DNA from: Actinomycetota bacterium
Lineage (GTDB): Bacteria > Actinomycetota > Actinomycetes > Streptosporangiales > Streptosporangiaceae
Direction of reading: 5' to 3'
Assembly: GCA_027313705.1 (NCBI GenBank)
Contig: DAHVDE010000002.1
Span: forward strand, 1 to 64,000
DNA length: 64,000 bases
Shown one piece after another: positions 39,901 through 64,000 of this stretch. Numbering within the stretch: position 1 is the first letter of the stretch; every line of letters begins with the position of its first letter. A model generated the notes under the pieces. The model saw nothing but the letters and a program-made list of their open reading frames with translations. It was not told where the DNA came from and did not search any database. A program made the position numbers and the translations under genes.

Positions 39901-39972
39901 AGGTCTCTCCCATGGATTTGCGGCCGGGCGTGGCCCACGTACTATGAAACACCCGGCGAATGGTTAAGTTCA

Positions 39973-44154: not shown

Positions 44155-44281
44155 CCATTTTCCGGATTATAAGGTCATGCTCTGGAACGGACGCCGATGC
44201 CGGTTGGCTGTAGATTAAAGCCGTTACCATAGGTAACCTTAGTGGTGATTACCCTCAAAGGATTCTCTGGGGCGGGCGCAG

Positions 44282-47369: not shown

Positions 47370-48004
47370 GCCGGATCCATTTCCCTGTCACCGCGCTCGG
47401 CCCCGGCAGGCGGCTCGGAGTGTGGGTCCAGGGCTGCCCGCTCGGCTGCGCCGGCTGTATCGCCCGCGACACCTGGGACGCCGAAGGCGGCCGCGAGGTG
47501 AGCTTGAGCGAGCTGGCCGGGCTCTGGCGTGAGGCCCTGGCTGCGGGCGCAGAAGGGCTGACGGTCAGTGGCGGCGAGCCGCTCGCGCAGCCGGCCGCGC
47601 TCGGCGAGTTCCTCTTGGCCGCCGCCCGTATCAGGGCGGAGCTTGCCAGCAATGCTGACCTGCTCGTCTACACCGGATACGAGCCCGGCGAGATCACCGG
47701 CCCGGCCGCGGGCGCCCTTGACCGCGCCGACGCGGTGATCACCGGCCGGTACGACGTGACCAGGCCGACCAGGCTGATCTGGCGCGGCTCGGCCAATCAG
47801 GTCCTCACGACAAGGACACCGCTTGGCACGCTCAGGTACGGCCCCTACCTGGACTACGCGCCGGACCTGGTGCCCTTCCAGGTCGCCGCAAGCGGCGGGT
47901 ACCTCTGGTTCGTCGGCGTGCCCAGGCAAGGCGACCTGCCTAAGCTGGAACGCGCGCTCCGGCAGCGCGGAGTCACCTTCGAGGCGGTGTCATGGCGGCC
48001 ATGA
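47357..48004 (+). CDS. Small radical-SAM / 4Fe-4S single-cluster protein
   Basis: A 215-residue protein of the NrdG/PflA-like radical SAM group. The N-terminus gives HFPVTALGPGRRLGVWVQGC, then CPLGCAGC, holding the CX3CX2C cluster Cys27, Cys31 and Cys34. The SAM-binding GG-E motif LTVSGGEPLAQ follows near residue 73. The protein has a short barrel with no SPASM or second cluster. Start GTG 47357 lies inside the ATPase gene (13-base overlap). In glycyl-radical systems such activases install a radical on a partner, but no glycyl-radical enzyme is present here, so its substrate would be new; the AAA+, FHA or kinase neighbours are the obvious candidates. Confidence 0.85.
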   Translation: MLRVSRIHFPVTALGPGRRLGVWVQGCPLGCAGCIARDTWDAEGGREVSLSELAGLWREALAAGAEGLTVSGGEPLAQPAALGEFLLAAARIRAELASNADLLVYTGYEPGEITGPAAGALDRADAVITGRYDVTRPTRLIWRGSANQVLTTRTPLGTLRYGPYLDYAPDLVPFQVAASGGYLWFVGVPRQGDLPKLERALRQRGVTFEAVSWRP

Positions 48005-48507
48005 CATACCGATGCCCGGTCGATCCCGAGGCCTGCGGTGAATCGTCACAACCCGGTTTCTGCCCGACGCATCGCGGGATCCGGCTAGAACGAGTCAGGG
48101 CGCCATTCGCCGGCCAGGCTCAGGCCCAGGTTCCCGCTCCTTCCCCTGATGCTCCTGCTGCCCCGGCTTCCGGTCAGCCCCGGCTGCTCGCCGTCCGGGT
48201 ACTCGGCAGCCTCATGCCCGTGCCGCCGGAAGGGCTGCTGCTCGGGCGCGAGGCGCCAGACACGCGGTACCTGCCCGGCTTCGCCGACCTTCGGCACGTG
48301 GGCAGGCAGCACGCCCGCCTGTACTGGAACCTGGATGCCTTGTACCTGATCGACCTCGGGTCGCAGAACAAGACGTTCGTGAACGGACGCGCCATTTCCG
48401 TGCCAGTGGCACTGCAGCCAGGGCAGGTGTTCAACCTCGCAGGCGATGCCGACATCACCGTGATCGAACTGGACGAAAACGGGTTCGAGGTGAGCGATCA
48501 TGGCTGA
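47992..48507 (+). CDS. Zinc-ribbon and FHA-domain protein
   Basis: A 171-residue protein. Residues about 5-30 have the ribbon-like Cys pattern RCPVDPEACGESSQPGFCPTH, which may bind Zn. A Pro/Ala linker follows. The FHA fold lies at about 65-165: GLLLGREAPDTR (Gly-Arg), VGRQHARLYWN (conserved Ser replaced by Gln-His), IDLGSQNKTFVNGRAI (the N-x-T phosphopeptide-binding loop). FHA domains bind phosphothreonine. I pick ATG 47992 (GAGG 7 bases upstream) over ATG 48001. It overlaps the radical SAM gene upstream and the kinase gene downstream (8 bases), so it is translationally coupled. A reader of the neighbouring kinase's output is the likely role. Confidence 0.85.
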   Translation: MAAMTYRCPVDPEACGESSQPGFCPTHRGIRLERVRAPFAGQAQAQVPAPSPDAPAAPASGQPRLLAVRVLGSLMPVPPEGLLLGREAPDTRYLPGFADLRHVGRQHARLYWNLDALYLIDLGSQNKTFVNGRAISVPVALQPGQVFNLAGDADITVIELDENGFEVSDHG

Positions 48508-51190
48508 CCCGCGCGATCCCGTACCGCCGACCGTGGTGCGGTCAGTCGCCGGCGCGGTGCCGCCGACTGTGGTGCGCGGCATCGATGAGGCGACGGCCGA
48601 TGTCGCCCGCGGGTATTTTCCTGACGAACTGCTCGCCAGCTATGAGGTCGTCGCCATCGCCGGATCGGGTACCGAGGCGGATGTCTGGCACGCCCGCGGT
48701 CGCGGCGACGGCAAGGACGTCGCGGTCAAGGTACACCGCCCTGGTGCCCCGCTCGACGACGCGCTGCTCGGTCACCTGGCCAACCCGCGATTCCGTCGGC
48801 ATGTGCCTGAGCTGCACGGGTTCGGCTACGCGCCGACGCCACACGGACGAGTGGGATGGGTCGCGATGGAATACCTGCCCGCCACGCTGGACGTGCTGAT
48901 GACGGATGAACGGTCCGCGGACAGCACGCTTCCCGCCGCCCGCGCCCGGGAGATCCTGGCCGAACTGGCCGCGACAATCAGGTTCTGGCAGGATCCCGAC
49001 GAGCTTGACCGGACGCCGATCGACGTCAAGCCGGACAACTTCGGCGTCCGCCGGACAATGCCACTTGAACTCGTGGTGATCGACTTCGGCGGAGTCGTCA
49101 GGCAGACGACTACTCAGCACTACGGCGACGTTGCCGCGGCCAGTGCCTACATGTCTCCCGAGGGCGTCATCGGCATGCGCCTGCTGGCGTCACCGTGGTG
49201 GTCGCTCGGAGTCATCGCCTACGAGCTGGCGACGGGTACCACCAGGTTCCGCGCCCCAGACGGCCGGCTCCGCGATGACCGGGTACTGCGCAGGGAGACT
49301 GCTCTTGGCGAGGTCGACCTGTCCGACGCGCCAGACGAGCGGTGGCGCTTGCTGCTGGCTGGCCTGCTGACCAGGAATCCCGATGAACGCTGGGGCTGGG
49401 ACCAGGTCAGCTCCTGGCTGGCGGGCGGCAGTCCGCCCGTGGCGCAGCCGGAAATCGCGGGCAAGCGCGAGGGAAAAGCCAGGGCGCCGATCACGTTCCG
49501 CGCCAGGAATTACTGGACACCCGAGGATTTGGCCGCCGCGCTCTTTGACTCGCCAGACATCGCCGCGAGCTGGCTGCAGACAGATGCCGACCAGCTCGCT
49601 CAGTGGGTGCGCGAGGACGTGGCCGACAACCTGTTCGACACCAGGAAGTACCTGACCGGGATCGCTGCCCGGCCGAACCGGGCACCGCTGGCGATCCTGG
49701 CATTCGGCGCCGCTTATGCCCCCGCGCTCACTCCGCGCTACCGCGGCACGCGAGTCGACGCGGCGGGGATCGACGCGCTGTGCCGTGCCGGGCCGAACAG
49801 CCACGACCTCCTTCGGGAACTCTTCGAGCAGGAGGTGCTGCCGGTAGCGGCGCGGTACCGATGCGCGCACCCCCGGTGCCAGTCCGGCCAGTGCTGCCTG
49901 GTACTCGACGGGCTGGCCGACGAGGTACCGCTGATCACCGGGCAGGTCGCGCAGGCGGCGACCGATCTCACGGGTACGGCCGCCACCGTCGCAGAACGCG
50001 ACCTCGCCCGCGCAACGGCGACGCAGCTCACGCTTGGCCAGGCGGCCGCCGACCCGGTGGCGTACGTCAGCCGCGAACTCGGCCGGGCGCGCACTGATGA
50101 CCCCGCCTGGTGGCCTGACCTCGTGCGGCGGGCCAGGCGGGCTAACCAGAACACGGTCGTCGGCCGGGTCGACCTGGTCACAGCCATCACCCTGGATGGC
50201 CGGGTGCGGGCGGAGCGGACCAGGCTCCAAGTGGCAGCCAGGGGCCGGCGGCGCGCGCAGATCGCCGCGGTCCGGCTAGTTCCGGCGATCGCCCTGTTCG
50301 CCTTCCTGGCGCTAGCCCTGCTGAACTGGTCGTCTTCTGTGATCAGCTTCGCGGTCTCGCTGGGTGCCGGGCACTTGCTTTCGACGGGGCCTGACGCGGC
50401 GTACCTCGATCAGCACGTCGGCCGTCTCGCCGCCTGGCGCGTCTTCGACCTGCTGCCGCTGCTCGTGGCCGCCGCCGTCGTGTCCGCGTTGCCGAGACTG
50501 GGACGCGGGGTGCTGGCAGGAACGGTCACCGGGCTGATCGCGGTCGGCTTCGCGGCCGTGCGCGTGCCCGCCTTTCCTGCCCCGCTCGCGCCCGGGTCCG
50601 TCCGCACCTGGCTGACCTCGCTAGCCGCAGCCTGGCACCAGTTCACCGGCATTGCGGCAGTCGTCATCTGTCCGGTCGCCGCGATTATCTGCCTGGTCAT
50701 CGCAGTCCGGCTGAGCCGCAGGCAGGAGGCCGCGAACCGGGTGCCCTGGCGGCTGCCTCGCCTGCCGGCCGCCGCCAGGCGCCTGCTCGCCGTCGCGATC
50801 ACCTTCGTGGTGCTCGAGTCGGTGCTGTGGGTGCTGGTCGTCGTCAAGGTGACGATCTTCGAACCCGGCCTGCTGCGGTCTGCCGGATCGCAGGCGGCGC
50901 ATTACCAGAGCGGCCTGTTGCTGGCGTGCGCCGTCGTCGCGCTTATCGCGGCCATCCCACGCCATGGCGCCTTCGGACTGCTCGTGACGGGATCAATCGG
51001 CGCGGCGGCGGCGGCGCTGTGGGGCCTTCCTCCCTTCCTGGGCAGGTATCTTTGGCATCCGGTGGCAGGCACGCTGCTCAGCGGACTGGCATCGATCTGG
51101 GGGACCGAGGCATTCTGGTCGGCCGTTGTCTTCGCGGCACCCCTCGCCATCCTCGGGTTTCTCGCCGCTGCCAGATTCCGCACCATGTAG
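48500..51190 (+). CDS. Serine/threonine-kinase-like protein with multi-pass membrane C-terminus
   Basis: An 896-residue protein. The kinase domain lies at about residues 48-310: Gly loop AIAGSGTEADVWHA, VAVKVHRPG with Lys77, PIDVKPDNFGV with the catalytic Asp175 (the HRD His-Arg is missing, leaving a P-I-D-V-K loop), VIDFGG with Asp195, and YMSPEG / WWSLGVIAYELATGTT as the APE-like and F-helix segments. So the chemistry is retained with a variant loop. Residues about 330-590 are an unknown linker domain with a Cys cluster (YRCAHPRCQSGQCCL). The C-terminal third has about eight hydrophobic helices (AVRLVPAIALFAFLALALLN, LLPLLVAAAVVSALPRL, and so on). A membrane-fixed sensor kinase is probable. 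It ends the CHAT-to-kinase gene string. Confidence 0.85.
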   Translation: MADPRDPVPPTVVRSVAGAVPPTVVRGIDEATADVARGYFPDELLASYEVVAIAGSGTEADVWHARGRGDGKDVAVKVHRPGAPLDDALLGHLANPRFRRHVPELHGFGYAPTPHGRVGWVAMEYLPATLDVLMTDERSADSTLPAARAREILAELAATIRFWQDPDELDRTPIDVKPDNFGVRRTMPLELVVIDFGGVVRQTTTQHYGDVAAASAYMSPEGVIGMRLLASPWWSLGVIAYELATGTTRFRAPDGRLRDDRVLRRETALGEVDLSDAPDERWRLLLAGLLTRNPDERWGWDQVSSWLAGGSPPVAQPEIAGKREGKARAPITFRARNYWTPEDLAAALFDSPDIAASWLQTDADQLAQWVREDVADNLFDTRKYLTGIAARPNRAPLAILAFGAAYAPALTPRYRGTRVDAAGIDALCRAGPNSHDLLRELFEQEVLPVAARYRCAHPRCQSGQCCLVLDGLADEVPLITGQVAQAATDLTGTAATVAERDLARATATQLTLGQAAADPVAYVSRELGRARTDDPAWWPDLVRRARRANQNTVVGRVDLVTAITLDGRVRAERTRLQVAARGRRRAQIAAVRLVPAIALFAFLALALLNWSSSVISFAVSLGAGHLLSTGPDAAYLDQHVGRLAAWRVFDLLPLLVAAAVVSALPRLGRGVLAGTVTGLIAVGFAAVRVPAFPAPLAPGSVRTWLTSLAAAWHQFTGIAAVVICPVAAIICLVIAVRLSRRQEAANRVPWRLPRLPAAARRLLAVAITFVVLESVLWVLVVVKVTIFEPGLLRSAGSQAAHYQSGLLLACAVVALIAAIPRHGAFGLLVTGSIGAAAAALWGLPPFLGRYLWHPVAGTLLSGLASIWGTEAFWSAVVFAAPLAILGFLAAARFRTM

Positions 51191-53174: not shown

Positions 53175-54524
53175 ATGACTGCTGTATCTAGCCAGCGTAT
53201 CGCAGAATTGCGCAGCGTCACCGAACGGCTTAATCTGCACGTTCCGCCTTCCTATTTCGTTTCAGCCAGCAGCAGCGAGCCTTATGAGGAGGCTGTCGAC
53301 CCGCTTATGGACCGGCCGGAAGGTGAGCCGCTGAATCTCTATGTCGGCGTCCCGTTGTGCGAGGAACACTGTTCATTCTGCATGTACTTCTACGGGCTGG
53401 CCGACGAGGAAGGCACCAGAGCCGAGGAGTGCCTGCGCGGGCTCGAGGGATTCCTTGAGCGGATCGCTTCACGCGATCAGCGGCACCTGATTTCCGGCAG
53501 CTACATCGGCGGTGGAACGCCGACGGTCATGTCCGCCAGCCAGATCCGCCGCCTGCTCGCGGCGGTGAACCGCGCGTTCGCATTTGAACCGCCCGCCCAG
53601 CGGACATTCGAGATGTCACCTCGATCGGCCACGCCGGAGAAGATCGACGCCATCGTGGCGGGCGGCTGCAACCGGGTCAGCTTCGGCGTCCAGTCATTCG
53701 ACCGGGCAATCGTGGCGCGCGCCGGGCGGACGTGGGCGGATCCGGCTAGCATCCGGGCGCTGATCGGCCGCTGCCGTGCCGCCGGGCTCACGGAGATCAA
53801 CGTCGACCTCATGACCGGGCTCGACGGCGAGGAAGACCGCACGCTCGCGGATGCGGTCGAGGCCATGGTCGGCGAGGCGGACCTCACGATCTCGATATAC
53901 CGGTACCGGCCTGGCCGCAGCGCCGAACTGGCCGCGAGGAACGGGATGAGCGAGTACGTCAGCAGGTGCGCCGAGCGCGTGTCGGCCGCCGCGGGGGTGG
54001 CCGTGCGGCACGGCTGGCGGTCCTCAGGCCGGTTCGACGGTGAGCACGTCAGGTTCATGCCCGCTCGTCCTAACCGCTGGCCGGAGCGGAACCTGTACGA
54101 GACGCGCTACCGGCCCGGCCTGCGTAACTCCCTGATCGGCGTGGGCGTCGCGGCGCGGTCGTTCCTCAGGGACGAGCGGATGGTGCACTGCCAGCACCGC
54201 AACAGCGCAGGCTACGAACTGTGCGGGCGCCTGGTCGAGGTCGAGCGCTGCGATCAGGTCTCTCGCGTGTCCGCTGCCCTGGTCAACGCCTTCTTCCGCG
54301 GCGAGGCGGCCGACGCGGCTCTCATCGAGGCGCAATGCGGGCTGGCCCCTGAGGAGGCGTTCGCTGACGAGCTCGGATACCTCGTCGGGGAGGGCGTGCT
54401 CGGCTGTGCGGGCCGTCGCTACGCGGTCGAACCGTCCTGCCGGGCACGGTGGGCCAGTCTCGACAAGCTGCTTTACCCGCCTGACTGGCTGCGGCAGCGC
54501 AGCGAGGCGGCCAGGTTGCGCTAG
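53175..54524 (+). CDS. HemN/HemW-like radical SAM enzyme
   Basis: A 449-residue radical SAM protein. The cluster motif LCEEHCSFCMYF gives CX3CX2C at Cys62, Cys66 and Cys69. SAM binding follows as SYIGGGTPTVMSASQI, and the beta-5 signature CNRVSFGVQSFD and the INVDLMTGLDGE segment fit the coproporphyrinogen III oxidase-like (HemN/HemW) family. The C-terminal part (AALVNAFFRGEAADAALIEA, then GYLVGEGVLGCAGRRYAVEP) is a HemN_C-like winged domain. ATG 53175 has AGAGG 6 bases before it. In this setting, next to a 2OG oxygenase and a hydroxylase remnant, heme biosynthesis is not indicated; methylation or other peptide/cofactor chemistry is at least as likely. Confidence 0.82.
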   Translation: MTAVSSQRIAELRSVTERLNLHVPPSYFVSASSSEPYEEAVDPLMDRPEGEPLNLYVGVPLCEEHCSFCMYFYGLADEEGTRAEECLRGLEGFLERIASRDQRHLISGSYIGGGTPTVMSASQIRRLLAAVNRAFAFEPPAQRTFEMSPRSATPEKIDAIVAGGCNRVSFGVQSFDRAIVARAGRTWADPASIRALIGRCRAAGLTEINVDLMTGLDGEEDRTLADAVEAMVGEADLTISIYRYRPGRSAELAARNGMSEYVSRCAERVSAAAGVAVRHGWRSSGRFDGEHVRFMPARPNRWPERNLYETRYRPGLRNSLIGVGVAARSFLRDERMVHCQHRNSAGYELCGRLVEVERCDQVSRVSAALVNAFFRGEAADAALIEAQCGLAPEEAFADELGYLVGEGVLGCAGRRYAVEPSCRARWASLDKLLYPPDWLRQRSEAARLR

Positions 54525-54555
54525 TGACCGGTTTAGCTGAAGAAAGGTATCGCCG

Positions 54556-55173
54556 ATGACCGTGACGCGGATTCCGCTGTTCACCGTTCCGATCTGGAAA
54601 GCGGCCGTGGATAAGGAAACCTGGTGGATCGGGGAACTGGCTGGCGACATCACGCTGCTGCTCGGGACGCGTCCGCAGGACGCGAGCAGGTCGTCCGGCC
54701 ATCAGACGCTCGCCGAGCTTCAGGACCTGCCTGGCGAGCACTGGAAAGAGTTCACTGGGTTCGTCGCCTCGGCGTTCGCCGAGATCGCAGCGACCGCACC
54801 GCAGCAGCGGTACGAGCACTTCACGATCAGGTCGTGGGGACTGAGGGTCAATGCCGCGAGCGCGGCCAAGGACCTGGAATGCGGACCTGACCGCTACCTG
54901 GCCAAGCACAATCACACGCCAGCCCTGCTGACCAGCGTCTTCACCTGCCAGCTGCCGGAGCGTCCTGGCCCGTCCAAACTTCCGACGATCTTCCATAACC
55001 CGGCGGTCCACATCAACTGCCCCTGGCAGCAGAGCATCGCACCGGTTGAGCCTGAGGTCGGCACGCTGCTGATTTTTCCAGGCTGGCTCGAGCATTCTGT
55101 GCCGATCATCGCCCCGATCCCCGAAGGCGGGCAGCGGATCACGATCAACTCCGACTATTTTCCGGCCTTTTGA
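54556..55173 (+). CDS. 2-oxoglutarate/Fe(II)-dependent oxygenase-like protein
   Basis: A 205-residue single-domain protein of the 2OG-Fe(II) oxygenase type. The middle gives LAKHNHTPALLTSVFTCQLP (His pair and strand); the end gives EVGTLLIFPGWLEHSVPII, with the distal His of the HxD...H facial triad, and GGQRITINSDYF, where Arg would bind 2-oxoglutarate. The proximal HxD is replaced by HNH or lies in HNPAVHINCP, so I am not certain which ligands bind iron. The family hydroxylates proteins, peptides or small metabolites. ATG 54556 follows GAAAGGTATCGCCG. It is followed at once by the Asp/Asn hydroxylase remnant (13 bases), so both belonged to the same pathway. Confidence 0.75.
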   Translation: MTVTRIPLFTVPIWKAAVDKETWWIGELAGDITLLLGTRPQDASRSSGHQTLAELQDLPGEHWKEFTGFVASAFAEIAATAPQQRYEHFTIRSWGLRVNAASAAKDLECGPDRYLAKHNHTPALLTSVFTCQLPERPGPSKLPTIFHNPAVHINCPWQQSIAPVEPEVGTLLIFPGWLEHSVPIIAPIPEGGQRITINSDYFPAF

Positions 55174-55186
55174 GGTGACGTCAGCC

Positions 55187-55716
55187 GTGGATCCTATCGG
55201 CGTTCTCGTCGAGCAATCGTTGCGCGCGGCCGGCGCCCTGATCCGCCGGTCGGTCCCGTGCGAGCCGAGCCCAGTACTCAACGGCGAGCGGTTTCCCTGG
55301 CTGGGTGAGCTGGCCGCGAACTGGATGGTCATTCGCGATGAGGCTGAACACGCCCGCGAACTGCGGATCGTGCCGCAGGATACGCGGCGGCTCAACCCGC
55401 TCTCCGTGCCGGTGTCCGGTGCCTGGGAACTGCTTCCGCTGCGCACGCACCGGGGCTGGCTCAGGCAGGTCGCCGGTCACTTCCCGGTGACCGTCGGCGT
55501 GCTCAGAGCGATCCCTGAGCTGCGCTGCGCCGACTTCGCCGTCCTCACGGCGGCCTCTTCGATCGCCGCCCACCGAGGTACCGGCCGCTTCCGCAGCCGG
55601 CCAGGCTCGTCAACAAGCTTGTCCTTAGCCTGTACCGGCTGCACCCGGTCGTCCGGGCGACGCATCGCCGGCTGCGCACGGTGTCCTGGGCACCGGTTGA
55701 CTCGGTGTCCGCCTGA
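55187..55716 (+). pseudogene. Aspartyl/asparaginyl beta-hydroxylase, internally deleted
   Basis: The start (GTG 55187, GAGGTG about 9 bases upstream; alternative GTG 55175) opens a typical hydroxylase N-terminal half: ELRIVPQDTRRLNPLSV, WELLPLRTHRGWLRQ, AGHFPVTVGVLRAIPELRCA and FAVLTAASSIAAHRG, the last containing the first iron His. About 90 residues containing the second His and the 2OG-binding Arg are missing. In the neighbouring frame the C-terminal end of the same family appears: YRPLPQPARLVNKLVLSLYR, then LHPVVRATHRRLR to a stop at 55714. The join near 55577 (CGAGGTACCGG) therefore combines an internal deletion and a shift. It cannot be active. It is the last gene of the plus-strand operon and overlaps the converging gene by about 90 bases. 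Confidence 0.72.
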
Positions 55717-56716
55717 AATCCACCGTGCAGGCGATGCGGGGCGCGAACTGGTCGGCAGCCGTGTGCTCGACGTGGACGACGGTTCCGCCCTTGTCAAAGA
55801 TGACCACCATGTCGTCGCGGATCCGCAGGGAGGCGCCGCGGCGCAGGGCCGCGAACAGGTCGAGATCAGGCCGGTTCGATGGCGCGATCGTGACGCCCGA
55901 GTACTCGATCACGCCCGGCGAGACGCTCGCGCCTGAGAAGGCGAACGCCTCCCATTCGTTCAGCACCAGGTAAGGGACTGCGCAAAGCCGGTCGATCCAG
56001 TCTGCGAGTTCCCGGCAGTGCCGCCGCATTTCCGTGCGCACCCGGCCGGCTGCCTCGATGGTCGCCTGGCAGTCGTACCTGCAGGGCAGGTGCGCTGCCC
56101 AGGTGAGCCCGCTGAATCTCATCAGCGAGTTGCACAGGTACGACGCCTCGCCGCGAACCGACCGGTAAGCCTGGTACGGCATGTTGTTGAGGGTCCAGTT
56201 GTTGTTGCGCGCGAACGCGTCCAGGCAGCAGCGCGGGTAGCCGAGCCCGTCGCCGAACCAGAGGTGATCGATCCAGGGCTTGTTCATCGCCCGGCCGCCG
56301 ATGATCAGCGGATACCAGCCGGCTGCCCTGGTTCTCTCGACGATGCGGCGATCCGCGCCGATGAAGACGTGCACGGAAGCGCCGGCGACGCGGTCGGCGA
56401 GCGCGTGGCCGACGGCGCGGGTCGTCGTCAGCGTCTCCCTGCCGACGACGCCGTCCAGCCTGCCCTGATCGCTGAGCGCCTCGAACTGCACTTCGGCGGC
56501 CACGGCGAGGCCGCGCTGCCGGCAGACCTCGACCAGTTCATCCAGGCGATCCTGGCTGACCCAGTCATCCATCACGGGCTTTAGTCCGGCGAGCAGCGCG
56601 GCGAAGCAGACAGGCTGGCCGTGCTCGGGCCGGATGTTCACGTATCCGCGCAGTGCGTCACTCATCTCCAGGGTGAGCAGCGACGGCGGCTTCAGGTCAC
56701 CGATGATCGGGATCAA
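55625..56716 (-). CDS. Unknown Cys-motif protein (GYPRCC, HLPCRYDC), DUF483-like
   Basis: A 363-residue protein at the downstream end of the minus-strand operon. It has a conserved-looking Cys pattern: FGDGLGYPRCCLDAFARNNN, then SYLCNSLMRF and AAHLPCRYDCQATIEA, in total five cysteines suited to metal or cluster binding. GYPxCC recalls proteins annotated DUF483, but I give that at low certainty. The N-terminal half (PVMDDWVSQDRLDELVEVCR, GASVHVFIGADRRIVERTRA) is alpha/beta. The last 34 residues (FRRTPSQPVPRTPCAAGDAS) are Pro/Gly-rich and read antisense to the hydroxylase remnant, so the natural end is probably near residue 330. It overlaps the preceding gene by 20 bases. I would test it as a tailoring enzyme. 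Confidence 0.65.
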   Translation of the reverse strand: MIPIIGDLKPPSLLTLEMSDALRGYVNIRPEHGQPVCFAALLAGLKPVMDDWVSQDRLDELVEVCRQRGLAVAAEVQFEALSDQGRLDGVVGRETLTTTRAVGHALADRVAGASVHVFIGADRRIVERTRAAGWYPLIIGGRAMNKPWIDHLWFGDGLGYPRCCLDAFARNNNWTLNNMPYQAYRSVRGEASYLCNSLMRFSGLTWAAHLPCRYDCQATIEAAGRVRTEMRRHCRELADWIDRLCAVPYLVLNEWEAFAFSGASVSPGVIEYSGVTIAPSNRPDLDLFAALRRGASLRIRDDMVVIFDKGGTVVHVEHTAADQFAPRIACTVDFRRTPSQPVPRTPCAAGDASPGRPGAAGTG

Positions 56717-58331
56717 GGCGTATCCATTCCAGGAGACCGGCTAGCTGTCGCACGGGTGACGAAGCCGTGCGCCAGCGGCTGGCTTCTGCGTGCATGGCGG
56801 CGAGCGGCCCTGGTTCGAGCTGGCAGGCGCTGGCTCGCTCGACCACGTCGGGCAGCCGGAAGAGAGCAACCTCGCTGAGCTCGACCTCGCCCATATGGCG
56901 CAGCGCGAACGCGAAGTCTCGCCACAGGTCGATGTCATGGGGCAGGTCGGACAGCAGGCTCGCATACACATCGGCAGCCACGCTGAAGTGCTCGCGAATG
57001 TAAGCCACGTGACCGGTCAGCAGGTCCCTGGCCGGCGAAGGCGGCAGCGACCCGAGGCGGCCGGCGGTTGCGGCGAACCGCTCGGGGTCGCGCGCGCTCA
57101 TCAGGCTCAGGTGATCGATCGTCTGATCCGCCCGGCCGCGTTCGTCGGCAAGCGCGTTGACCTCCACGCCGTCAGGTGCCCCCAGTTCGGCGAGCAGGCC
57201 ATCAAGTTCCGCGCCAGCGGCAGGCAGGCGGGTCACCCTGGGCGCCACCTGGCGCCACCGGCCGCCAGCGGACAGCCAGTGGGTCCGCCAGGCCGGTGCC
57301 CGTCGCCGGCCGGTGCCTGACGGCGGTGCGGTGCCCTCGAAGCCGAACGAGGCGAGCCTGTCCCTCGCCAGCTCACCCGGCTCGGTCAGGCGGCCCGCGC
57401 GAGCCAGCCAGTCCGCGATCTCGCCAAGCACGATCGCGACGCCTGCGGCAGGCTCCTTGCAGTCGCCGCCCCGCTCAAACAGTTCAAGCAGGCGCGTGAC
57501 CTGACCGGCATCGGCGACATCGACAAGGCCGGGTGGCGGCAAGGCAGCGGATTCGGTCAGCAGGGCCATGCCGGAGGCTGACGAGCGAAGATGAGCGGCG
57601 GCCGCGGCGACCTTCGCCGCCCGCCACCGGGCGCTGGCCGTTGCCGGCGCCACCGCGATCCCCGGCCTGGCCGCTGAGCGTGGTCGGTCAGGTCCTCGCT
57701 CAACCGCCACCACGGGAGAGCGCGCGTGCAGGATCGGGTCGGCACCGCACTGGCCTGCGTCCACCGCATCGCCATGCGAAGCGACTACGCCGGGCAGCGG
57801 CGCGCGCTCGGTGATCAGCCGGGAGTGCGGAACGCCTGGCAGCACCACGCTTCCCGCGAGAACTTCGATGGTCACGTCACAGCCAGCGAACTCGGCGCCG
57901 CAGTCCGCTGCCAGCCACGTGCCAGGCAGCCTGATCTGACCAGTCCGGTCGGCTCTGACCTGGCAGGGCGGTACATCAGAACCCGGGTAAGCCCGCGCGC
58001 GGAGCAGGCGGGCTGACAGCGTCAGCGTCTCTGCCCGGCGGCAGGCGGCGCGGAAGTGACCGTCGGGCAGGAGCGTCCCTGCGCCGCGGTCAAGCAGGTT
58101 GCCGAGTTCCGCGCACCAGGCGCCGACGCGCGGGTCGGTCAGAATCGGGTCGGCGGCTTCCCCGGCCTGCTTGAGCGCATTGGAAAGCTCATGCATTGCC
58201 TGAGCTGGCGATCCGTTCTCGTCAAGCGCGCCCAGACGTCGGCGGAGCCACTCGATCCGCAGCAGTGTCAGGCCGCGGACGGTGGCCAGCACCTCGTCGA
58301 CGCCGGTATTTGTGCCGGTGCCTGCGCTCAT
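56697..58331 (-). CDS. Unknown large protein, possible relative of the HExxH modification proteins
   Basis: A 544-residue protein with no membrane segment. The N-terminal 130 residues (LRIEWLRRRLGALDENGSPA, ILTDPRVGAWCAELGNLLDR) resemble, in my recollection, the start of proteins of the HExxH peptide-modification class, but no HExxH motif is present in this one. The middle is low in complexity (PPSGTGRRRAPAW). The last 170 residues (LTGHVAYIREHFSVAADVYA, LWRDFAFALRHMGE) are helical repeats. Its start overlaps the LLM gene stop (ATGA) and its end overlaps the next gene, so it is firmly an operon member. A substrate-recognition protein is one possibility. This assignment is low confidence. Confidence 0.6.
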   Translation of the reverse strand: MSAGTGTNTGVDEVLATVRGLTLLRIEWLRRRLGALDENGSPAQAMHELSNALKQAGEAADPILTDPRVGAWCAELGNLLDRGAGTLLPDGHFRAACRRAETLTLSARLLRARAYPGSDVPPCQVRADRTGQIRLPGTWLAADCGAEFAGCDVTIEVLAGSVVLPGVPHSRLITERAPLPGVVASHGDAVDAGQCGADPILHARSPVVAVERGPDRPRSAARPGIAVAPATASARWRAAKVAAAAAHLRSSASGMALLTESAALPPPGLVDVADAGQVTRLLELFERGGDCKEPAAGVAIVLGEIADWLARAGRLTEPGELARDRLASFGFEGTAPPSGTGRRRAPAWRTHWLSAGGRWRQVAPRVTRLPAAGAELDGLLAELGAPDGVEVNALADERGRADQTIDHLSLMSARDPERFAATAGRLGSLPPSPARDLLTGHVAYIREHFSVAADVYASLLSDLPHDIDLWRDFAFALRHMGEVELSEVALFRLPDVVERASACQLEPGPLAAMHAEASRWRTASSPVRQLAGLLEWIRLDPDHR

Positions 58332-59266
58332 GGCGTCTGCAAGGTTAGTACTTCGCCAGCGAGTTCGGCCAGCTCGGCGTCCCAGTCCGGCGGATGGTCG
58401 GCGGGAATGAGGATGAACTTCGAGGCGCCTGCCTCGATGTAATCGCTGATCCGCGCTCGCAGGGCGGCACCGCCGACCGGCAGCGCCTCCGCGATGGCCA
58501 GGTCAGGACGGCGCCAGGCCAGGAAGCTGGTCGCCTGCGGGGTCGGCTCGCGCAGGCAGTACAGCATCAGGACGCCGTAATGGTCCTCGTCGATCCGCCT
58601 GCTGTGTTTCCTGGCGGTCGCGTCCACGATCGCGATGCCAGCGCTGACCTCGGCCGGGGTGGCGAAGCTGGCCAGCCAGCCGTCCCCGAGCCGCCCGGCT
58701 CGCCGCAGCTCGGTACGATGTGCGCCGCCCAGCCAGATCGGCAGCGGCCGGCCGGGCCTTGGCCGGACACCGAAGCCGTCGGCGGTAAAGCGCGGCCCGT
58801 GATGGTACACGGCTTCCTCGGTCCAGAACTGGCGGATGAGCGGCACGGCTTCCTCGAACCACGGTCCGCGCTCCGGCCGGCTCACGCCGAAGGCCTGCTG
58901 CTCGGCGGCGTGCACGGTGCCGAGCCCGAGGATCGGAAGAGTTCTCCCGCCGCTGAGCAGGTGCAGCGTGGCAAGCGCCTTGGCGATCAGCGCGGGTGGC
59001 CGGCCGGGTACGACAAGCACGCTGGTGCCGATCTTGATCCGCTCGGTCACGGCCGCCGCGAAGCCGAGCGCGGCGACCGGGTCGAGCGCGTGGCCGGCCG
59101 CCACCTCGGAGAACCACAGGGAGTCGAAGCCGTGCTTCTCGGCCGCCAGGCAGACGGTGAGAAGCTCGGCGCGGTTGCGTACTAGCTCGTGGACACCGAG
59201 CCCGACGCCGATGCGAACCTTCAGCGTCTTCCTCTGTGTCTCCATCAGCGCCTGCTGGCTGGCCAT
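58328..59266 (-). CDS. LLM-class flavin-dependent oxidoreductase
   Basis: A 312-residue TIM-barrel protein of the bacterial luciferase-like (LLM) class, which uses F420 or FMN. The start ATG 59266 has GAGGAGG upstream. Family marks: VRIGVGLGVHELVRNRAELL, then CLAAEKHGFDSLWFSEV, KIGTSVLVVPGRPPALIAKA and GGAHRTELRRAGRLGDGWL, and a C-terminal ADHPPDWDAELAELAGEVLT. LLM enzymes oxidise or reduce small molecules, including amino-acid derived and terpenoid substrates. It is 10 bases after the SPASM protein and overlaps the next gene by 4. In an operon with two radical SAM proteins its reducing or oxidising step would act on the modified product. Confidence 0.88.
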   Translation of the reverse strand: MASQQALMETQRKTLKVRIGVGLGVHELVRNRAELLTVCLAAEKHGFDSLWFSEVAAGHALDPVAALGFAAAVTERIKIGTSVLVVPGRPPALIAKALATLHLLSGGRTLPILGLGTVHAAEQQAFGVSRPERGPWFEEAVPLIRQFWTEEAVYHHGPRFTADGFGVRPRPGRPLPIWLGGAHRTELRRAGRLGDGWLASFATPAEVSAGIAIVDATARKHSRRIDEDHYGVLMLYCLREPTPQATSFLAWRRPDLAIAEALPVGGAALRARISDYIEAGASKFILIPADHPPDWDAELAELAGEVLTLQTP

Positions 59267-59276
59267 GCGATCCTCC

Positions 59277-60761
59277 TCACGCTGCCGCGTGCACGGCTTG
59301 GGTGACAGCGCCGTTGAAGGCGGTGCTCTCGCGGTGCTTGCCGGCGAAGAAAGACGGAATAACGGTGGCGAACAGCTCCTCGTGCATGGCCTGGTAGGCC
59401 ACGCAGTGCGGGTCGGGCATCGGCACGGGCACCGAGCCGTGCTGCCCGATCAGCGTGCAGCCGCCGCCGCAACTGCCGAGCCAGCCGCATCCGGCGCAAG
59501 ACGGGGGAGCGGCCCTCAGGTCCGCTGGCAGCAGGTCGGGCAGCGGCGAAGGCCCGGCCGTTGCGAGGGGCAGCAAGCGGCGTCGCCCTGGCTCAGCCGC
59601 CTGAACGCTTTCCGAGACGAAGCGCGGGCAGGCGTGCACGCCGCCGTCGGCGGCGACAACGTGCAGTGAGCGGCCCGAGCCGCAGTCCCGGCTGGTGCAG
59701 GAATCCCGCCAGCCGGACCTGTCGCCTAGCAGGCGCAGCAGGAACTTGCCCGCCGACTGGTCGAGCTGACTGGCTCCATCGCGGTCGGCAAGGCGTATTG
59801 CTGAGCGCATGAAGCCGGCGAACTCCAGGTTGGTGATGGCGTGCCTGGTCCACGCGGCCCCGGCCTCACCTTCTGGCAGCACCGGTTTCAGCAAGGTGCT
59901 CGCCGGCTCGTGGCCGGCCAGCTCACCGACGGTTTCTCTTGGCTGATGAATATTGTGGCGGTTGATTGTCGCGATGAGGTGGACGGGAAGTTCACGTCGC
60001 CTGCACCGGCCGATTGCCGCAACGGCGCGATCATAAGAGCCGGAGCCGTTCCTGAAAACCCTGGCGGCATCGTGGATAGCGCGGGGACCGTCGAGGCTGA
60101 TCCCGATCGCCACGCCGTGGCGGGCAAGGAAGTCGGCGAGGTCGTCGTCCAGCGCGGTTCCGTTGGTCTGGACCGATGCGCGCAACGTCTTCCCGCGCGC
60201 CGACGCCGCTTCGCGCGCCCAGGGCAGCAGTTCGCGGAACGCCGCGCCGGCGACGGCGATCTCGCCGAAGTCGACAAGGATCGTTTCCCACGGTTGTTCG
60301 AGTGCGCCGAGGATGGCGGAGCGAGCGAGATCCCCGGCCATGGCGCGGTGCGGTGTCGGAGCCGCGTGGCCAAGATAGCAATACGTGCATACCAGGTTGC
60401 ACCCGTGGTTGAGCAGCAATACCAGTGTGTAGTAGTCCCTGGTCGCCGCGACGGCCGCATGGTGCTCGGTGGCGTTGTAGACGCCCTGGCCGCCGATGGT
60501 GATCAGGCCGCGGCGCCAGGCCGCGTCGATCAAGGGGCGCCACTGACCTGAGTCTTCGGCATGGGCGATGCCGGCGAACGGCGTGCGCTCGGCCGGGTCG
60601 AACACGGCCCAGCCGCCAGTCCTGGAGCTGATCGCCAGTGACCCGAAGGGAAGGTCATGCCACCTGAGTTCGTCCGGCCTGACGGCACCTGACGCGGGCA
60701 CGGGGGATGACCACCACCTGCGCCAGGTCGGCAGCGGGTCGGCCGGAGCGATCCAGCGCAT
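59277..60761 (-). CDS. Radical SAM/SPASM peptide-maturase-like protein
   Basis: A 494-residue radical SAM protein. I start it at ATG 60761, 4 bases after the preceding stop; the frame extends upstream to 61001 but that part overlaps the preceding gene. Residues about 1-100 are a leader-binding-like domain (WHDLPFGSLAISSRTGGWAV, then IAHAEDSGQWRPLIDAAWRR). The cluster is HGCNLVCTYCYLGH: Cys121, Cys125, Cys128. The C-terminal SPASM segment is Cys-rich: SCTSRDCGSG, VHACPRF, PPSCAGCGWLGSCGGGCTLI and PHCVAYQ. SPASM proteins bind two extra Fe-S clusters and modify peptides, as in FxsB, AlbA and mycofactocin maturases. No short precursor gene is seen nearby. Confidence 0.86.
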   Translation of the reverse strand: MRWIAPADPLPTWRRWWSSPVPASGAVRPDELRWHDLPFGSLAISSRTGGWAVFDPAERTPFAGIAHAEDSGQWRPLIDAAWRRGLITIGGQGVYNATEHHAAVAATRDYYTLVLLLNHGCNLVCTYCYLGHAAPTPHRAMAGDLARSAILGALEQPWETILVDFGEIAVAGAAFRELLPWAREAASARGKTLRASVQTNGTALDDDLADFLARHGVAIGISLDGPRAIHDAARVFRNGSGSYDRAVAAIGRCRRRELPVHLIATINRHNIHQPRETVGELAGHEPASTLLKPVLPEGEAGAAWTRHAITNLEFAGFMRSAIRLADRDGASQLDQSAGKFLLRLLGDRSGWRDSCTSRDCGSGRSLHVVAADGGVHACPRFVSESVQAAEPGRRRLLPLATAGPSPLPDLLPADLRAAPPSCAGCGWLGSCGGGCTLIGQHGSVPVPMPDPHCVAYQAMHEELFATVIPSFFAGKHRESTAFNGAVTQAVHAAA

Positions 60762-60765
60762 GGCG

Positions 60766-61806
60766 TCAGCCTGCCCCGGCGAGCGGAGGCATGGCACGCG
60801 GACGGTCCTTGGCGCGTGGCTGATAGGGGCGGGTGAGGTCGAGACCCGCGCAGAGCAGGAGGAACTTGCAGGTGCCGCAGCTCGCCAGCAGTTGCTCTCC
60901 GGCACGGTCGGCGAGCCTGGTCCACCCGCCAGGACCGGTGGCTTCTGCGGCCGAGCCGACCGGGTGATCGCGCAGCGGCGGGCAGTTGAAGACCACGCCA
61001 TCGGGTCCGACGCAGGTCTGGAGCGCGTGCTCGGCCCTCGGGCGGGGTACCTCCCCGGCGCTGGCGGGCCACTCGTCGCCGTAGACAGGACCCATCACGC
61101 TCACCGTGAACGGGCGCTCCCGGCTCACCTCGATGATCCGCGCGATGAGGGACCGCCAGGCCGGCTCGTCCAGGCGGCGATCCATGATACCGTGCGCGCG
61201 GCCGAGATCAGCGAGCGGGAAGACGGTCCACACCTCAGCGCCGAGGCGTCCTGCGAGGTCCGCGCAGTCGCTTACCTCGTGGGCGTTGCCCTGGTGCAGG
61301 ACCGTGTGCAGACCGGTGATCCGGCCGCCCGCCGCCTGCAGCCGGTCGATCGCGCGCATGGTCCGGCGGAAGGTTCCCTCGCCGCGCATCCAGTCATGCG
61401 TTCGCGGCGACGCGCCGTCGATGCTGACGTGGACACCGAACGCCGGATGCTGGGCCTGGGCAGAGGCGATCCTGCCGGGGATGTCGCCGCGGAACAGCAA
61501 GCCGTTGGTCACCAGCGTGGTGCGCTCGGCCCCGACTTCGTGCGCATAGGCCGCGAGTTCCACCGCATCGGGGCGCAGGAGCGCTTCACCGCCCGAGAAG
61601 ACCAGGCTGCGCACGCCGCCCTCGACGCACCTCTGCACGAACCGCCGCCAGGCGGGCATGTCGAGTTCGCGGTCCGCGGGCGAGTCTTCCTCTGGCACGG
61701 CGCAGTGCCGGCAGCGCAGGTTGCAGCGCTCGGTGAGAAGGATCTGCACCTGCCGGGGCCGGAACGCGCTCTGGGGCCGGGCCGGGACCGTGGTGAGGAT
61801 GCTCAC
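60766..61806 (-). CDS. Radical SAM protein with C-terminal SPASM/twitch-like cysteines
   Basis: A 346-residue radical SAM protein. ATG 61806 overlaps the amidohydrolase stop (ATGA). The cluster is TERCNLRCRHCAVPEEDS: Cys28, Cys32 and Cys35. SAM binding follows as SLVFSGGEALLRPDAV. The C-terminal part carries a twitch/SPASM Cys set: QTCVGPDGVVFNCPPL, and LLASCGTCKFLLLCAGLD. The whole is close in architecture to PqqE/MftC-type proteins (346 residues against about 380). It stops 4 bases before the next radical SAM gene, so two different radical SAM chemistries are coupled in one operon. Probably the first modification step; inference. Confidence 0.86.
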   Translation of the reverse strand: MSILTTVPARPQSAFRPRQVQILLTERCNLRCRHCAVPEEDSPADRELDMPAWRRFVQRCVEGGVRSLVFSGGEALLRPDAVELAAYAHEVGAERTTLVTNGLLFRGDIPGRIASAQAQHPAFGVHVSIDGASPRTHDWMRGEGTFRRTMRAIDRLQAAGGRITGLHTVLHQGNAHEVSDCADLAGRLGAEVWTVFPLADLGRAHGIMDRRLDEPAWRSLIARIIEVSRERPFTVSVMGPVYGDEWPASAGEVPRPRAEHALQTCVGPDGVVFNCPPLRDHPVGSAAEATGPGGWTRLADRAGEQLLASCGTCKFLLLCAGLDLTRPYQPRAKDRPRAMPPLAGAG

Positions 61807-63086
61807 TGCGGGGACACCGCCTCGTGGCCGAGCGCCGGGTGGTAGCCAGCGGGCAGCATGCCCTCCAGGTCGGCGATCTCGCTGTCGGCCGACCAGGCAG
61901 GGCCCAGGTGGGCCAGCAGTTCCGGCAGGTCGATGCCGTAATACCTGGCCGGCCCTTCGACCAGCATCGCTCGCTTTTGCCGGTCGGTGAGGTCTGGCCG
62001 GTCGCGGAGGACGACAAGCGGGTCAGGCCAGGCACCGTCCATGTGCGGCCAGTCGCTGGCGAACAGTATCCGGTCGGCGCCCACCAGCCCGGCCGCGTGC
62101 GCGAGCCCTAGGTCGGCGGGCTCGCCTGAAATATAAAGCTGGTCGCGGAACTGCCTGATCGGACCGCGCTCGGGCACGCGGGAAAGCAGGGCGAACTTGT
62201 CGTAGGTCTCTTCCAGGCGCCCAAGCCAGTGCGGCAGCCAGCCGACGTCTCCTTCGAACACGCCAAGACGCAGCGCGGGGAACCGGTCGAGCGCGCCTCC
62301 GTCGATCACGTGCATGACCGCTAGCTGCGCCTGGAAGGGCTGGCCCATCTGCCACTGCGTGCGGTTCGCATAGACCCAGCCGACGCCGAGTGCGTTGGAT
62401 GCCGGGTTCACGACATGCACGGTGGCGGGCAGGTCGTGGTCGGTGAGGATCTGGTAGATCGGGTCCATTTCCTGGTGGCCAAGGTTACGGCAAAGGGCGG
62501 CGCGGCCAGGATCTGCGAAGGGCACGGCACCGGGACCGGAGCGGGGAAGCGGTGACAACATGGCGGTCGAGCAGCCGAGGCCGATGCACCTGGTCAGTTC
62601 GGCGACCGCGCGGTCGATATCCGCAAGCGGGATGACGGCACCCCAGCGGAGGCGTTGCGGGTCGGCCTGGCAGAACCGTGCGATCCACGAGTTGTAGGTC
62701 TCCGCATAGGCCCAGCGGAAGTCGATGTCCTCGACGTCGTCCAGGCCGAGAGTGCAGGAAGGGAACAAGACGCTGACGGCGATTCCCTGCTCGTCCATCA
62801 GCCGCAGCCGGGCGTGCGGCTCGTTGACACCGGGGTGCACCTCGGTGTCGAGATCGAGATCGAGCCTGCCCTCCGCGCTGCCTGAGCCCGGTGTGCACAG
62901 CGTGCCGATCGTCCATTCCAGGTCGAGTTCGCGGCCGTGGTGGAACAGCTTTTCCTCACCGACCTCTGTCCTGGTGCGCTGGCGCGCGTACGGACGGAAC
63001 CGCTCGGGCAGTTCCTTCGCCCACAGGTCGAAAGGCTCGACCACATGGCTGTCCGCGTCGATGACCGGCAGCTTCGGCTTACTCAT
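61803..63086 (-). CDS. Amidohydrolase-2 family metal-dependent hydrolase
   Basis: A 427-residue protein of the Amidohydrolase_2 (ACMSD-like) TIM-barrel family. I start it at ATG 63086 (GAGGGGG ribosome binding site at 63094-63100) although the frame is open to 63335. The metal motif IDADSHVVEPFDL is at the N-terminus; TVHVVNPAS holds the next His, and the C-terminal RILFASDWPHMDGA holds the conserved Asp. The middle (AVSVLFPSCTLGLDDVEDID) matches the decarboxylase-type members. Such enzymes decarboxylate or hydrolyse small aromatic or amino-acid-derived acids. Its start overlaps the HExxH gene by 8 bases and its stop overlaps the radical SAM gene. Confidence 0.86.
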   Translation of the reverse strand: MSKPKLPVIDADSHVVEPFDLWAKELPERFRPYARQRTRTEVGEEKLFHHGRELDLEWTIGTLCTPGSGSAEGRLDLDLDTEVHPGVNEPHARLRLMDEQGIAVSVLFPSCTLGLDDVEDIDFRWAYAETYNSWIARFCQADPQRLRWGAVIPLADIDRAVAELTRCIGLGCSTAMLSPLPRSGPGAVPFADPGRAALCRNLGHQEMDPIYQILTDHDLPATVHVVNPASNALGVGWVYANRTQWQMGQPFQAQLAVMHVIDGGALDRFPALRLGVFEGDVGWLPHWLGRLEETYDKFALLSRVPERGPIRQFRDQLYISGEPADLGLAHAAGLVGADRILFASDWPHMDGAWPDPLVVLRDRPDLTDRQKRAMLVEGPARYYGIDLPELLAHLGPAWSADSEIADLEGMLPAGYHPALGHEAVSPQ

Positions 63087-64000
63087 GCGAGATCCCCCTC
63101 CTGCCCGGCCGGTAGGTTCCATCGAGCCAGCGGGCAAGATCCTCAGGATCCGGATCTTCGCCGACGTCGCTGAGCGCGCGGTACAGCGCGAGCAGCACCT
63201 CGGGACGCTCAAGCAGCGCCCGGCCAGTCGCCGGGTCGCCGCCGCGCAACCGGGCCAGGCCAAGGCCCGCCCAGTTGGTGACGCAGTCAGGGGCACTGGC
63301 GATCGCTGCGCGGTAGGACCGGGCGGCCTGGTCATAGTCGCCGTGTAGGTAGGCGACGTCGGCGCCGCTGGCTTCGGCGCAGGCGGCTTCGAACTGGTCC
63401 TGGTCGGTCAGGCGCAGGTGCCGCAAACGGAATCGGGCGGTCTCCGTCGCGGCCGGCGCCGGGCCGCTGACCACGTCCGTGCGGACCGGCTCCGCCGAGG
63501 CCGGCTCTGCCCGCTGCCACTGACTGGTCAGGATGCTGATCGCGTCGGCGGCCGGGTTCAGGTTGCGCACCCGCCACCGGCCGCGATGGTCGGCGGCCGA
63601 GTCACTGGCTTGGGCGGCGAGGCCCGGCGGCACTGCCTCGCTGACCCAGCTGCGGATCGTGCTCCTGATTCCCTCGACGAAACGCCGGCCGGCGTCGGTC
63701 AGCTCCGGCGAGCCAGCCAGTTCGTCGGCCGCCAGCGCGGTCTGCTCGCGCCAGCGAGCGAATTTGAAGCTGGCCAGCCCGGCGCTCGCGGCGCTGGCGA
63801 CCGTCCTGCGGACTCGCCAGAAGTCGGTCTCCCCGAGGAAGGCGTACGTGCCTTGCAGCAGCCCGCCGAGCGGGCGGGGGTCATCGCGCCATGGCGCGTA
63901 GTAGCGGGTACCGGTTCGCGCCTCGTACAGCGGCATCAGGTCGATCAGCGCACCGAGCTTGGCGTGCTGGAACTCGTGGATCAGCGTGACGGCGAACGTC
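63079..64000 (-). CDS. HExxH peptide-modification protein, partial (runs off the window)
   Basis: The C-terminal 306 residues of a protein whose start lies beyond position 64000. The first visible residues read TFAVTLIHEFQHAKLGALID, a zinc-metalloprotease-type HExxH (HEFQH, 63964-63978), then YYAPWRDDPRPLGGLLQGTY and ASAGLASFKFARWREQTALA. The order HExxH, YAPWRDDPRPLGGLLQG is that of the 'HEXXH motif domain' proteins found with FxsB-type radical SAM maturases. The C-terminus has TPR-like helices (DYDQAARSYRAAIASAPDCV, ALYRALSDVGEDPDPEDLAR). It is the first visible gene of the minus-strand operon; the true first gene or a precursor could lie further upstream, outside the window. Confidence 0.78.
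   Translation of the reverse strand, partial: TFAVTLIHEFQHAKLGALIDLMPLYEARTGTRYYAPWRDDPRPLGGLLQGTYAFLGETDFWRVRRTVASAASAGLASFKFARWREQTALAADELAGSPELTDAGRRFVEGIRSTIRSWVSEAVPPGLAAQASDSAADHRGRWRVRNLNPAADAISILTSQWQRAEPASAEPVRTDVVSGPAPAATETARFRLRHLRLTDQDQFEAACAEASGADVAYLHGDYDQAARSYRAAIASAPDCVTNWAGLGLARLRGGDPATGRALLERPEVLLALYRALSDVGEDPDPEDLARWLDGTYRPGRRGISHE

Follow-up and report, generated by a model that had tools for sequence, protein, structure and literature searches.

FxsA/FxsB systems combine a precursor peptide with a radical S-adenosylmethionine (SAM) maturase of the FxsB family, which we take to be InterPro entry IPR026335. Two related ring-forming enzymes are described in the available part of PMC11002830: MscB, placed in IPR026335, links Phe C4 to the beta-carbon of Ser, and HaaB links His C2 to the beta-carbon of Ala, in each case between residues i and i+2. 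Enzymes of the aKG-HExxH class are presented, in the accessible sections of PMC12636437, as alpha-ketoglutarate-dependent non-heme iron oxygenases that hydroxylate ringed peptides. Here we analyzed an operon that reaches into a 64,000-nucleotide stretch of DNA from an Actinomycetota bacterium (C2:1-64000, below called the window; the genome comprises 5.3 Mb in 118 contigs with an estimated contamination of 4.28%). The ten genes of this operon probably form a pathway for a ribosomally synthesized and post-translationally modified peptide (RiPP) of the FxsA/FxsB/aKG-HExxH, or triceptide, kind, which is extended by a tail of its own that would act on the same peptide.

Contig C2 has a length of 67,310 bases, so that 3.3 kb past the window edge could be read, and the operon extends 3 kb into this region. 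Ten minus-strand genes lie in a row from 66953 down to 55625, in the order GNAT, precursor, FxsB, HExxH protein, amidohydrolase, radical SAM protein 2 (rSAM2), radical SAM/SPASM protein 3 (rSAM3), luciferase-like monooxygenase (LLM)-class oxidoreductase, degenerate HExxH paralogue and DUF483-like protein (Table 1). Neighboring genes overlap by 1-20 bases or are separated by gaps of 4 or 10 bases, the sole exception being the 79 bases between the precursor and FxsB genes. All ten frames are open, each ending in a single stop, with a third-position GC of 0.78-0.87. The initial annotation, which was made from the window, had counted eight genes; seven reach into the window, and the HExxH gene is cut by its edge. 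The tight packing that it described from 55625 onwards was confirmed (overlaps of 4-20 bases, gaps of 4 and 10 within the window), as were the families of the two radical SAM proteins, the amidohydrolase (Amidohydro_2), the LLM-class oxidoreductase and the HEFQH protein. Two start sites were revised: that of the amidohydrolase most likely lies at 63086 in place of 63335, and that of the SPASM protein at 60761 in place of 61001.

The precursor, FxsB and HExxH genes are adjacent, and each product scores above its curated NCBIfam cut-off, which agrees with the peptide-modification pathway that had been proposed. A precursor had been suspected upstream of 64000 and was found there, next to the FxsB/HExxH pair, as in those relatives for which a precursor was recovered. 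The suggested likeness of the HExxH protein to those beside FxsB-type maturases is borne out by its TIGR04267 match and by the adjoining FxsB gene. Within the precursor, the TIGR04268 match spans residues 13-52, and the core can be read as A-FGA-FNQ-HSS-SPW, with Phe, Phe and His spaced three residues apart. The solved structure nearest to FxsB is the radical SAM domain of ChlB (9gm3), and the PDB entry nearest to the HExxH protein is 22nu (210.6 bits, with HEFQH aligned), followed further off by ChlH (8s5f, 32.7 bits). Residues H300, E301 and H304 of the HExxH protein are invariant across 8 aligned sequences. Its score against NF040587, which describes FxsBH with an inactivated hydroxylase extension, is 123.7 (cut-off 225), and the paralogue gave no row for this model. 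The ChlA/ChlB/ChlH system, which thus supplies solved relatives of both enzymes, differs in that its enzymes are fused, whereas they are encoded by separate genes in the operon, where the HExxH protein carries TPR and a second, apparently inactive HExxH-like protein is present.

Relatives of the HExxH protein occur in 119 of 200 genomes of the family, Streptosporangiaceae, at E<=1e-10, the genome of the window included. For comparison we used 20 FxsB/HExxH loci of the family of 5.1-19.5 kb, some of them shortened by contig ends (L062, 5.1 kb). In tblastn searches at E<=1e-3, FxsB and the HExxH protein had matches in 20 of these 20 loci; the amidohydrolase, rSAM2, the LLM protein, the HExxH paralogue and the DUF483-like protein had matches in none, and those of rSAM3 were confined to FxsB genes. 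Three further loci in which a DUF483-like domain occurs (L076, L080 and L081) likewise lacked matches to the amidohydrolase, rSAM2 and the LLM protein, the rSAM3 matches there being confined to the FxsB gene. Unlike plain FxsA/FxsB triceptide loci, the operon therefore has six genes after the HExxH gene, four of whose products are enzymes not seen beside FxsB in the other examined loci, and its precursor core ends in HSSSPW, not FxSxx. The proposed new pathway is better regarded as a variant of the FxsB/HExxH kind: the core belongs to the known FxsA/FxsB/HExxH set, and the tail as a set is new to the examined loci. Similarly, the short gene ending in FxSxx or another core that was anticipated past 64000 is there as an FxsA-like precursor, with SSSPW at its end in place of FxSxx. 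The expectation that the genes would be conserved together did not hold, as none of the other examined loci has the middle of the operon next to FxsB.

The last two genes tie the tail to Fxs systems. Among the 200 genomes, relatives of the DUF483-like protein turned up in three besides that of the window, namely G156, Sphaerisporangium rufum and G218. In locus L076 (genome G156), as well as in Sphaerisporangium rufum (L080; L077 is the same record) and Nocardia bovistercoris (L081), a DUF483-like domain is fused to the C terminus of an HExxH-TPR protein that adjoins FxsB. These loci share with the operon the FxsB neighbor, TPR, the DUF483-like domain, [F/H]xS-like triplets and a Trp near the C terminus of the precursor. 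The difference is that they encode one HExxH-TPR-DUF483 chain, whereas the operon encodes a presumably active HExxH-TPR protein, a separate and presumably inactive one, and the DUF483-like protein. Judged by these fusions, the last two operon genes belong with Fxs systems. A pattern scan with the first DUF483-like alignment across a genome collection (one genome per species, 84,980 species) yielded L080, L081 and, in Omnitrophota UBA9636, L079, the last with a stand-alone pair of DUF483 and TPR genes. A weak relative in L078 (G218), fused to a methyltransferase-like domain and adjoining a radical SAM protein, scored 37.7 bits against the DUF483-like profile, where 1 of 200 shuffles was reported, at 1.6. 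The cysteines of GYPxCC and PCxxxC are invariant in five aligned relatives. We use the name 'DUF483-like' because the proteins of the window, L076, L078, L080 and L081 stay below the cut-off of 25 of Pfam DUF483 (PF04467; 16.2 for L081, no DUF483 row for L076, L080 and L078), which is exceeded in L079 (25.8) and L087 (25.9).

A radical SAM motif open reading frame (ORF) lies near the DUF483-like gene in 10 of 11 loci (the window, L076, L078, L079, L080, L081, G746, G747, G748 and G762), the exception being L087. A connection between DUF483 and radical SAM proteins was seen earlier in Thermus phages, prophages and some cyanobacteria, and fusions of DUF483 to methyltransferase or radical SAM domains are cited from InterPro (PMC11437467, available part). 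In a partial literature search, a link of DUF483 to FxsB/HExxH or to triplet precursors was not found in print. The DUF483-like profile matched only the genome of the window among 396 genomes of the phylum (E<=1e-5), and a scan of viral contigs with the alignment gave no result. As the AlphaFold model was weak (4 sequences, mean pLDDT 59.8) and the best Foldseek E-value was 0.13, we claim no fold.

The penultimate gene product showed only weak matches in Pfam, TPR being the best, and plain blastp against the HExxH protein of the operon was also weak (27.3 bits, E 0.001). By contrast with these searches, hhalign against a profile of eight HExxH-TPR proteins gave a probability of 96 and an E-value of 4.4e-9. 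The relationship extends over both parts of the protein: the first 380 residues alone scored 45.0 (probability 71.6; maximum of 100 shuffles 17.7) and the TPR end alone 51.1, with four other operon proteins at 18.0 or lower. Because the HExxH motif and the PWRDDPRP block are both absent, we read this paralogue as probably inactive. It matched only its own genome among 200 at E<=1e-6, and a plasmid search with the paralogue and the DUF483-like protein gave no match at E<=0.01.

A second connection comes from the precursors. The precursor of the operon, AFGAFNQHSSSPW, and those of the three fused loci contain [F/H]-x-x triplets and, near the end, HxS followed by Trp. The fused-locus precursors are made of FSS/HSS-like triplets and end in HSSTSWAT (L080), HSSWSR (L081) and HSSWSGRG (L076); they were picked by pattern and by eye, not by the precursor model. 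The precursors of all four distinct FxsB loci that have DUF483 carry, at the end, an HxS with a Trp after it, versus 0 of 16 recovered precursors without a DUF483-like gene, two of which (L015 and L049) have HxS in the last 20 residues and no terminal Trp. The recovered precursors come from a scan of 55 loci with a precursor model whose seeds were drawn from these same loci, and which returned 20 rows, 3 of them repeats, leaving 17 distinct precursors including that of the operon; loci without a hit are uncounted. The hypergeometric value of 2e-4 is not a clean probability, since the counting used the very loci in which the pattern had first been noticed, and these come from related species.

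The two radical SAM proteins in the middle of the operon retain the CxxxCxxC motif as well as C-terminal cluster cysteines. Neither reached an NCBIfam cut-off among the matches listed, that is, the best 25 of 65 rows for rSAM2 (top TIGR04545, 109.8 versus 500) and the best 25 of 63 for rSAM3 (top TIGR03942, 108.3 versus 349). At E<=1e-20, 7 of the 200 family genomes besides its own have relatives of rSAM2, whose identity over the core does not exceed 38%. None of the 344 remaining genomes of the order matched rSAM3 at E<=1e-30, and at E<=1e-24 it occurs in 2 of 396 phylum genomes besides its own, with 31-32% identity. A pattern scan for rSAM3 on contigs of the genome collection gave no result, the patterns being poorly chosen stretches, and a plasmid search with rSAM3 and rSAM2 returned relatives below 60% identity only. 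The nearest solved relatives of the amidohydrolase are PtmU3 (6omp) and DitZ (8uyr), and the nearest PDB relatives of the LLM protein are F420-dependent enzymes. Both families can occur in RiPP pathways: according to the available parts of the respective reports, the amidohydrolase PurAH belongs to the bottromycin pathway (PMC10885120), and luciferase-like enzymes are present in some daptide clusters (PMC10036551). The likeness is one of description. None of the ten genes belongs to the families named for those pathways (YcaO, oxidative decarboxylase and aminotransferase).

From gene content, families, packing, fusion partners and precursor pattern we infer the chemistry, the order of steps and a single peptide substrate for all enzymes. 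The 63-residue precursor with its FxsA-type leader would be the substrate. FxsB would join a Phe or His ring carbon to the beta-carbon two residues on, most likely in FNQ and HSS and perhaps in FGA, after which the HExxH protein would hydroxylate a beta-carbon of the ringed peptide with iron and alpha-ketoglutarate. Seen as a split version of the fusion, the inactive HExxH-TPR paralogue and the DUF483-like protein would most likely hold the HSSSPW (HxS...W) tail for a further step. Later redox steps on the same peptide, such as a further cross-link or oxidation and flavin redox chemistry, may be carried out by rSAM2, rSAM3 and the LLM protein, and the amidohydrolase may remove or open part of the peptide, be it tail or leader, by hydrolysis. 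These functional assignments, made on sequence grounds, are strongest for FxsB and the HExxH protein and weak for the four middle enzymes.

The DUF483-like family also leads to a different setting. UBA9636 has a His-Xaa-Ser system with HxsD at 67.2 (cut-off 50) and HxsB at 493.6 (cut-off 370), and an 84-residue HxsA-like peptide that ends in HASHPSHTSHGSHGQW and scores 35.8 against HxsA3 (cut-off 65) and 36.7 against HxsA4 (cut-off 55). On its contig DMEU01000006.1, from L097:13470 to L079:11379, the system is followed by about 22 radical SAM CxxxCxxC ORFs in about 32 kb, 14 distinct ones of which were HMM-checked; the array includes B12-type ORFs and one MiaB-like ORF and terminates in the DUF483-like and TPR genes. 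Several of its radical SAM ORFs are weakly matched by rSAM2 (E 1e-5 to 2e-11). The system (HxsA-D) thus resembles the operon in its Trp-ending triplet-repeat precursor and in its radical SAM, DUF483-like and TPR genes. A full-length DUF483-like gene is present in 4 of 48 other genomes related to UBA9636, in every case near radical SAM motif ORFs. We tentatively propose that the GYPxCC protein is an undescribed accessory of radical SAM peptide pathways, serving [F/H]-x-S...Trp precursors in FxsB and His-Xaa-Ser settings, and that the operon encodes a long assembly line for one core of about 13 residues, with three radical SAM enzymes, an iron oxygenase, a flavoenzyme and a hydrolase. The operon itself combines a core of known kind with a tail that is new to the examined loci and an undescribed, putative accessory protein. 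If our interpretation is true, it would represent a multi-step extension of cyclophane peptides, and the unstudied DUF483-like family would assist several radical SAM peptide systems across phyla.

Several observations weigh against these interpretations. The precursor lacks a literal C-terminal F-x-S-x-x and ends in SSSPW, for which reason we class the operon as a variant of the FxsA/FxsB triceptides, not as a plain member. The fused-locus precursors stay below TIGR04268 (L080 19.7 versus 28; no hit for L081 and L076), as does the DUF483-like protein of the operon below PF04467 (13.7). Since the four middle genes have no counterpart in the 20 loci or in L076, L080 and L081, what ties them to the peptide is the operon packing of one genome. 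An HxS-repeat ORF, sought as three tandem triplets in ORFs of less than 170 residues, was found in none of four further DUF483 spans of the Omnitrophota group (G746, G747, G748 and G762; loci L104-L110), one of which is a 5.5 kb contig; DUF483 is therefore not tied to such peptides everywhere. The association of DUF483 with HxS...W peptides is further weakened by a second DUF483 in UBA9636, in whose 11.3 kb stretch there is no radical SAM motif ORF.

The absence of the middle genes from all 20 family loci, and of rSAM3 from the other genomes of the order at the threshold given above, would also be expected if two modules adjoined by chance, namely an ordinary FxsA/FxsB/HExxH core next to an independent pathway for a small molecule or redox cofactor (amidohydrolase, two radical SAM proteins and LLM protein) whose substrates do not include the peptide. 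The many solved enzymes of small-molecule metabolism matched by the LLM and Amidohydro_2 proteins point in the same direction. However, the middle genes sit between the HExxH gene and the two genes akin to HExxH-TPR-DUF483, with overlaps of 8 and 4 bases, and an insertion would need to land inside the Fxs operon and preserve translational coupling, so that we consider chance adjacency unlikely. It is less probable still that the tail is decaying, the paralogue and the split DUF483-like gene being what is left of a broken fusion, with FxsA/FxsB/HExxH as the sole working part. The missing HExxH motif and PWRDDPRP block of the paralogue and the single fused chains of the three FxsB-adjoining relatives would suit such decay, but the open frames and third-position GC of all ten genes, the invariant GYPxCC/PCxxxC cysteines and the stand-alone DUF483 and TPR pair of L079 argue against it.

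A further alternative would make the HExxH protein a peptidase in a conflict-system peptide-processing cassette, as was proposed for FxSxx precursors beside VMAP/vWA systems, with the extra enzymes modifying a cell protein or an effector. It draws on an eLife 2020 paper that, in its available part, interprets FxSxx precursors adjoining zincin-like proteins as conflict-system peptide processing (PMC7159879), on the plus-strand TPR-CHAT protein, ClpB-like ATPase and kinase that the window also holds, and on the proteolytic cleavage by PflC, without a leader, that is also reported in the accessible sections of PMC12636437. The same sections of this later work show oxygenase chemistry, aKG-HExxH beta-hydroxylase is the present name of the family, and ChlH is among the solved relatives; we therefore rank this alternative as very improbable, marginally behind decay of the tail. 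The RiPP operon with a tail acting on the Fxs peptide remains the reading that we prefer.

Other known systems were tried and rejected. Membership in the His-Xaa-Ser system was dismissed on the scores for HxsB (FxsB 46.8 and rSAM3 87.3 versus a cut-off of 370) and HxsC (rSAM2 52.7 versus 267.9). For mycofactocin, MftC gave 74.4 bits with rSAM2 and 60.7 bits with rSAM3 (cut-off 265), and for pyrroloquinoline quinone (PQQ), PqqE gave 73.0 bits with rSAM2 (cut-off 381.35) and was absent for rSAM3 among the best 25 of 63 rows. A PQQ- or mycofactocin-like set, which the initial annotation had named as a possible refutation, is thus not what the operon represents, the scores of both proteins for MftC and of rSAM2 for PqqE being below the cut-offs.

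Table 1. Genes of the operon in transcriptional order, with coordinates on contig C2 and principal matches.
Gene product	Coordinates	Strand	Features and matches
GNAT	66378-66953 (outside window)	-	Acetyltransf_3 60.4 bits, cut-off 25.4
FxsA-like precursor, 63 aa	66187-66378 (outside window)	-	TIGR04268 34.0 bits, cut-off 28
FxsB	64872-66107 (outside window)	-	TIGR04269 506.2, cut-off 370; ChlB 9gm3 292.9 bits
aKG-HExxH-type peptide beta-hydroxylase with C-terminal TPR, 598 aa	63079-64875 (63079-64000 in window)	-	TIGR04267 180.9, cut-off 40
Amidohydro_2 family metal-dependent hydrolase	61803-63086	-	PF04909 92.4 bits, cut-off 26.4
Radical SAM protein 2 (rSAM2)	60766-61806	-	CNLRCRHC, C-terminal CxxCx5C; PF04055 93.2 bits
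Radical SAM/SPASM protein 3 (rSAM3)	59277-60761	-	CNLVCTYC, SPASM-like cysteines 360-453; PF04055 47.8 bits
LLM-class (F420/FMN) oxidoreductase	58328-59266	-	PF00296 161.2 bits, cut-off 27.9; TIGR03854 248, below cut-off 295.6
Degenerate HExxH paralogue	56697-58331	-	N-terminal domain and TPR, HExxH motif absent; hhalign to HExxH profile
DUF483-like protein	55625-56716	-	GYPRCC and PCxxxC motifs; 33% identity to C-terminal domain of L076 fusion, tblastn E 6e-44

Convergent with the operon, the plus strand of the window encodes at 53178-55173 a HutW/HemW-like radical SAM protein (HutW 115.2 versus 400 bits), then a 2OG-Fe(II) oxygenase (PF13759). A further plus-strand ORF at 55175-55936 overlaps with its 3' end the DUF483-like gene on the opposite strand. 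Further away, at 39889-51190 on the plus strand, a TPR-CHAT protein, a ClpB-like ATPase ORF, a small Fer4_12/radical SAM activase-like protein and a protein kinase stand in one row that resembles conflict-type cassettes by eye; the ClpB-like ORF (45511-46743, a partial match) is overlapped by another ORF at 46740-47369. In the family of the window, locus L078 (L078:3989-7484) contains a candidate reading frame whose first 190 residues include 31 [HYFW]-x-[DS] triplets, compared with a mean of 11.4 and a maximum of 20 in 1000 shuffles. It overlaps the radical SAM gene, which is followed by the weakly DUF483-like/methyltransferase fusion, and L078 may represent an undescribed triplet-repeat peptide locus.

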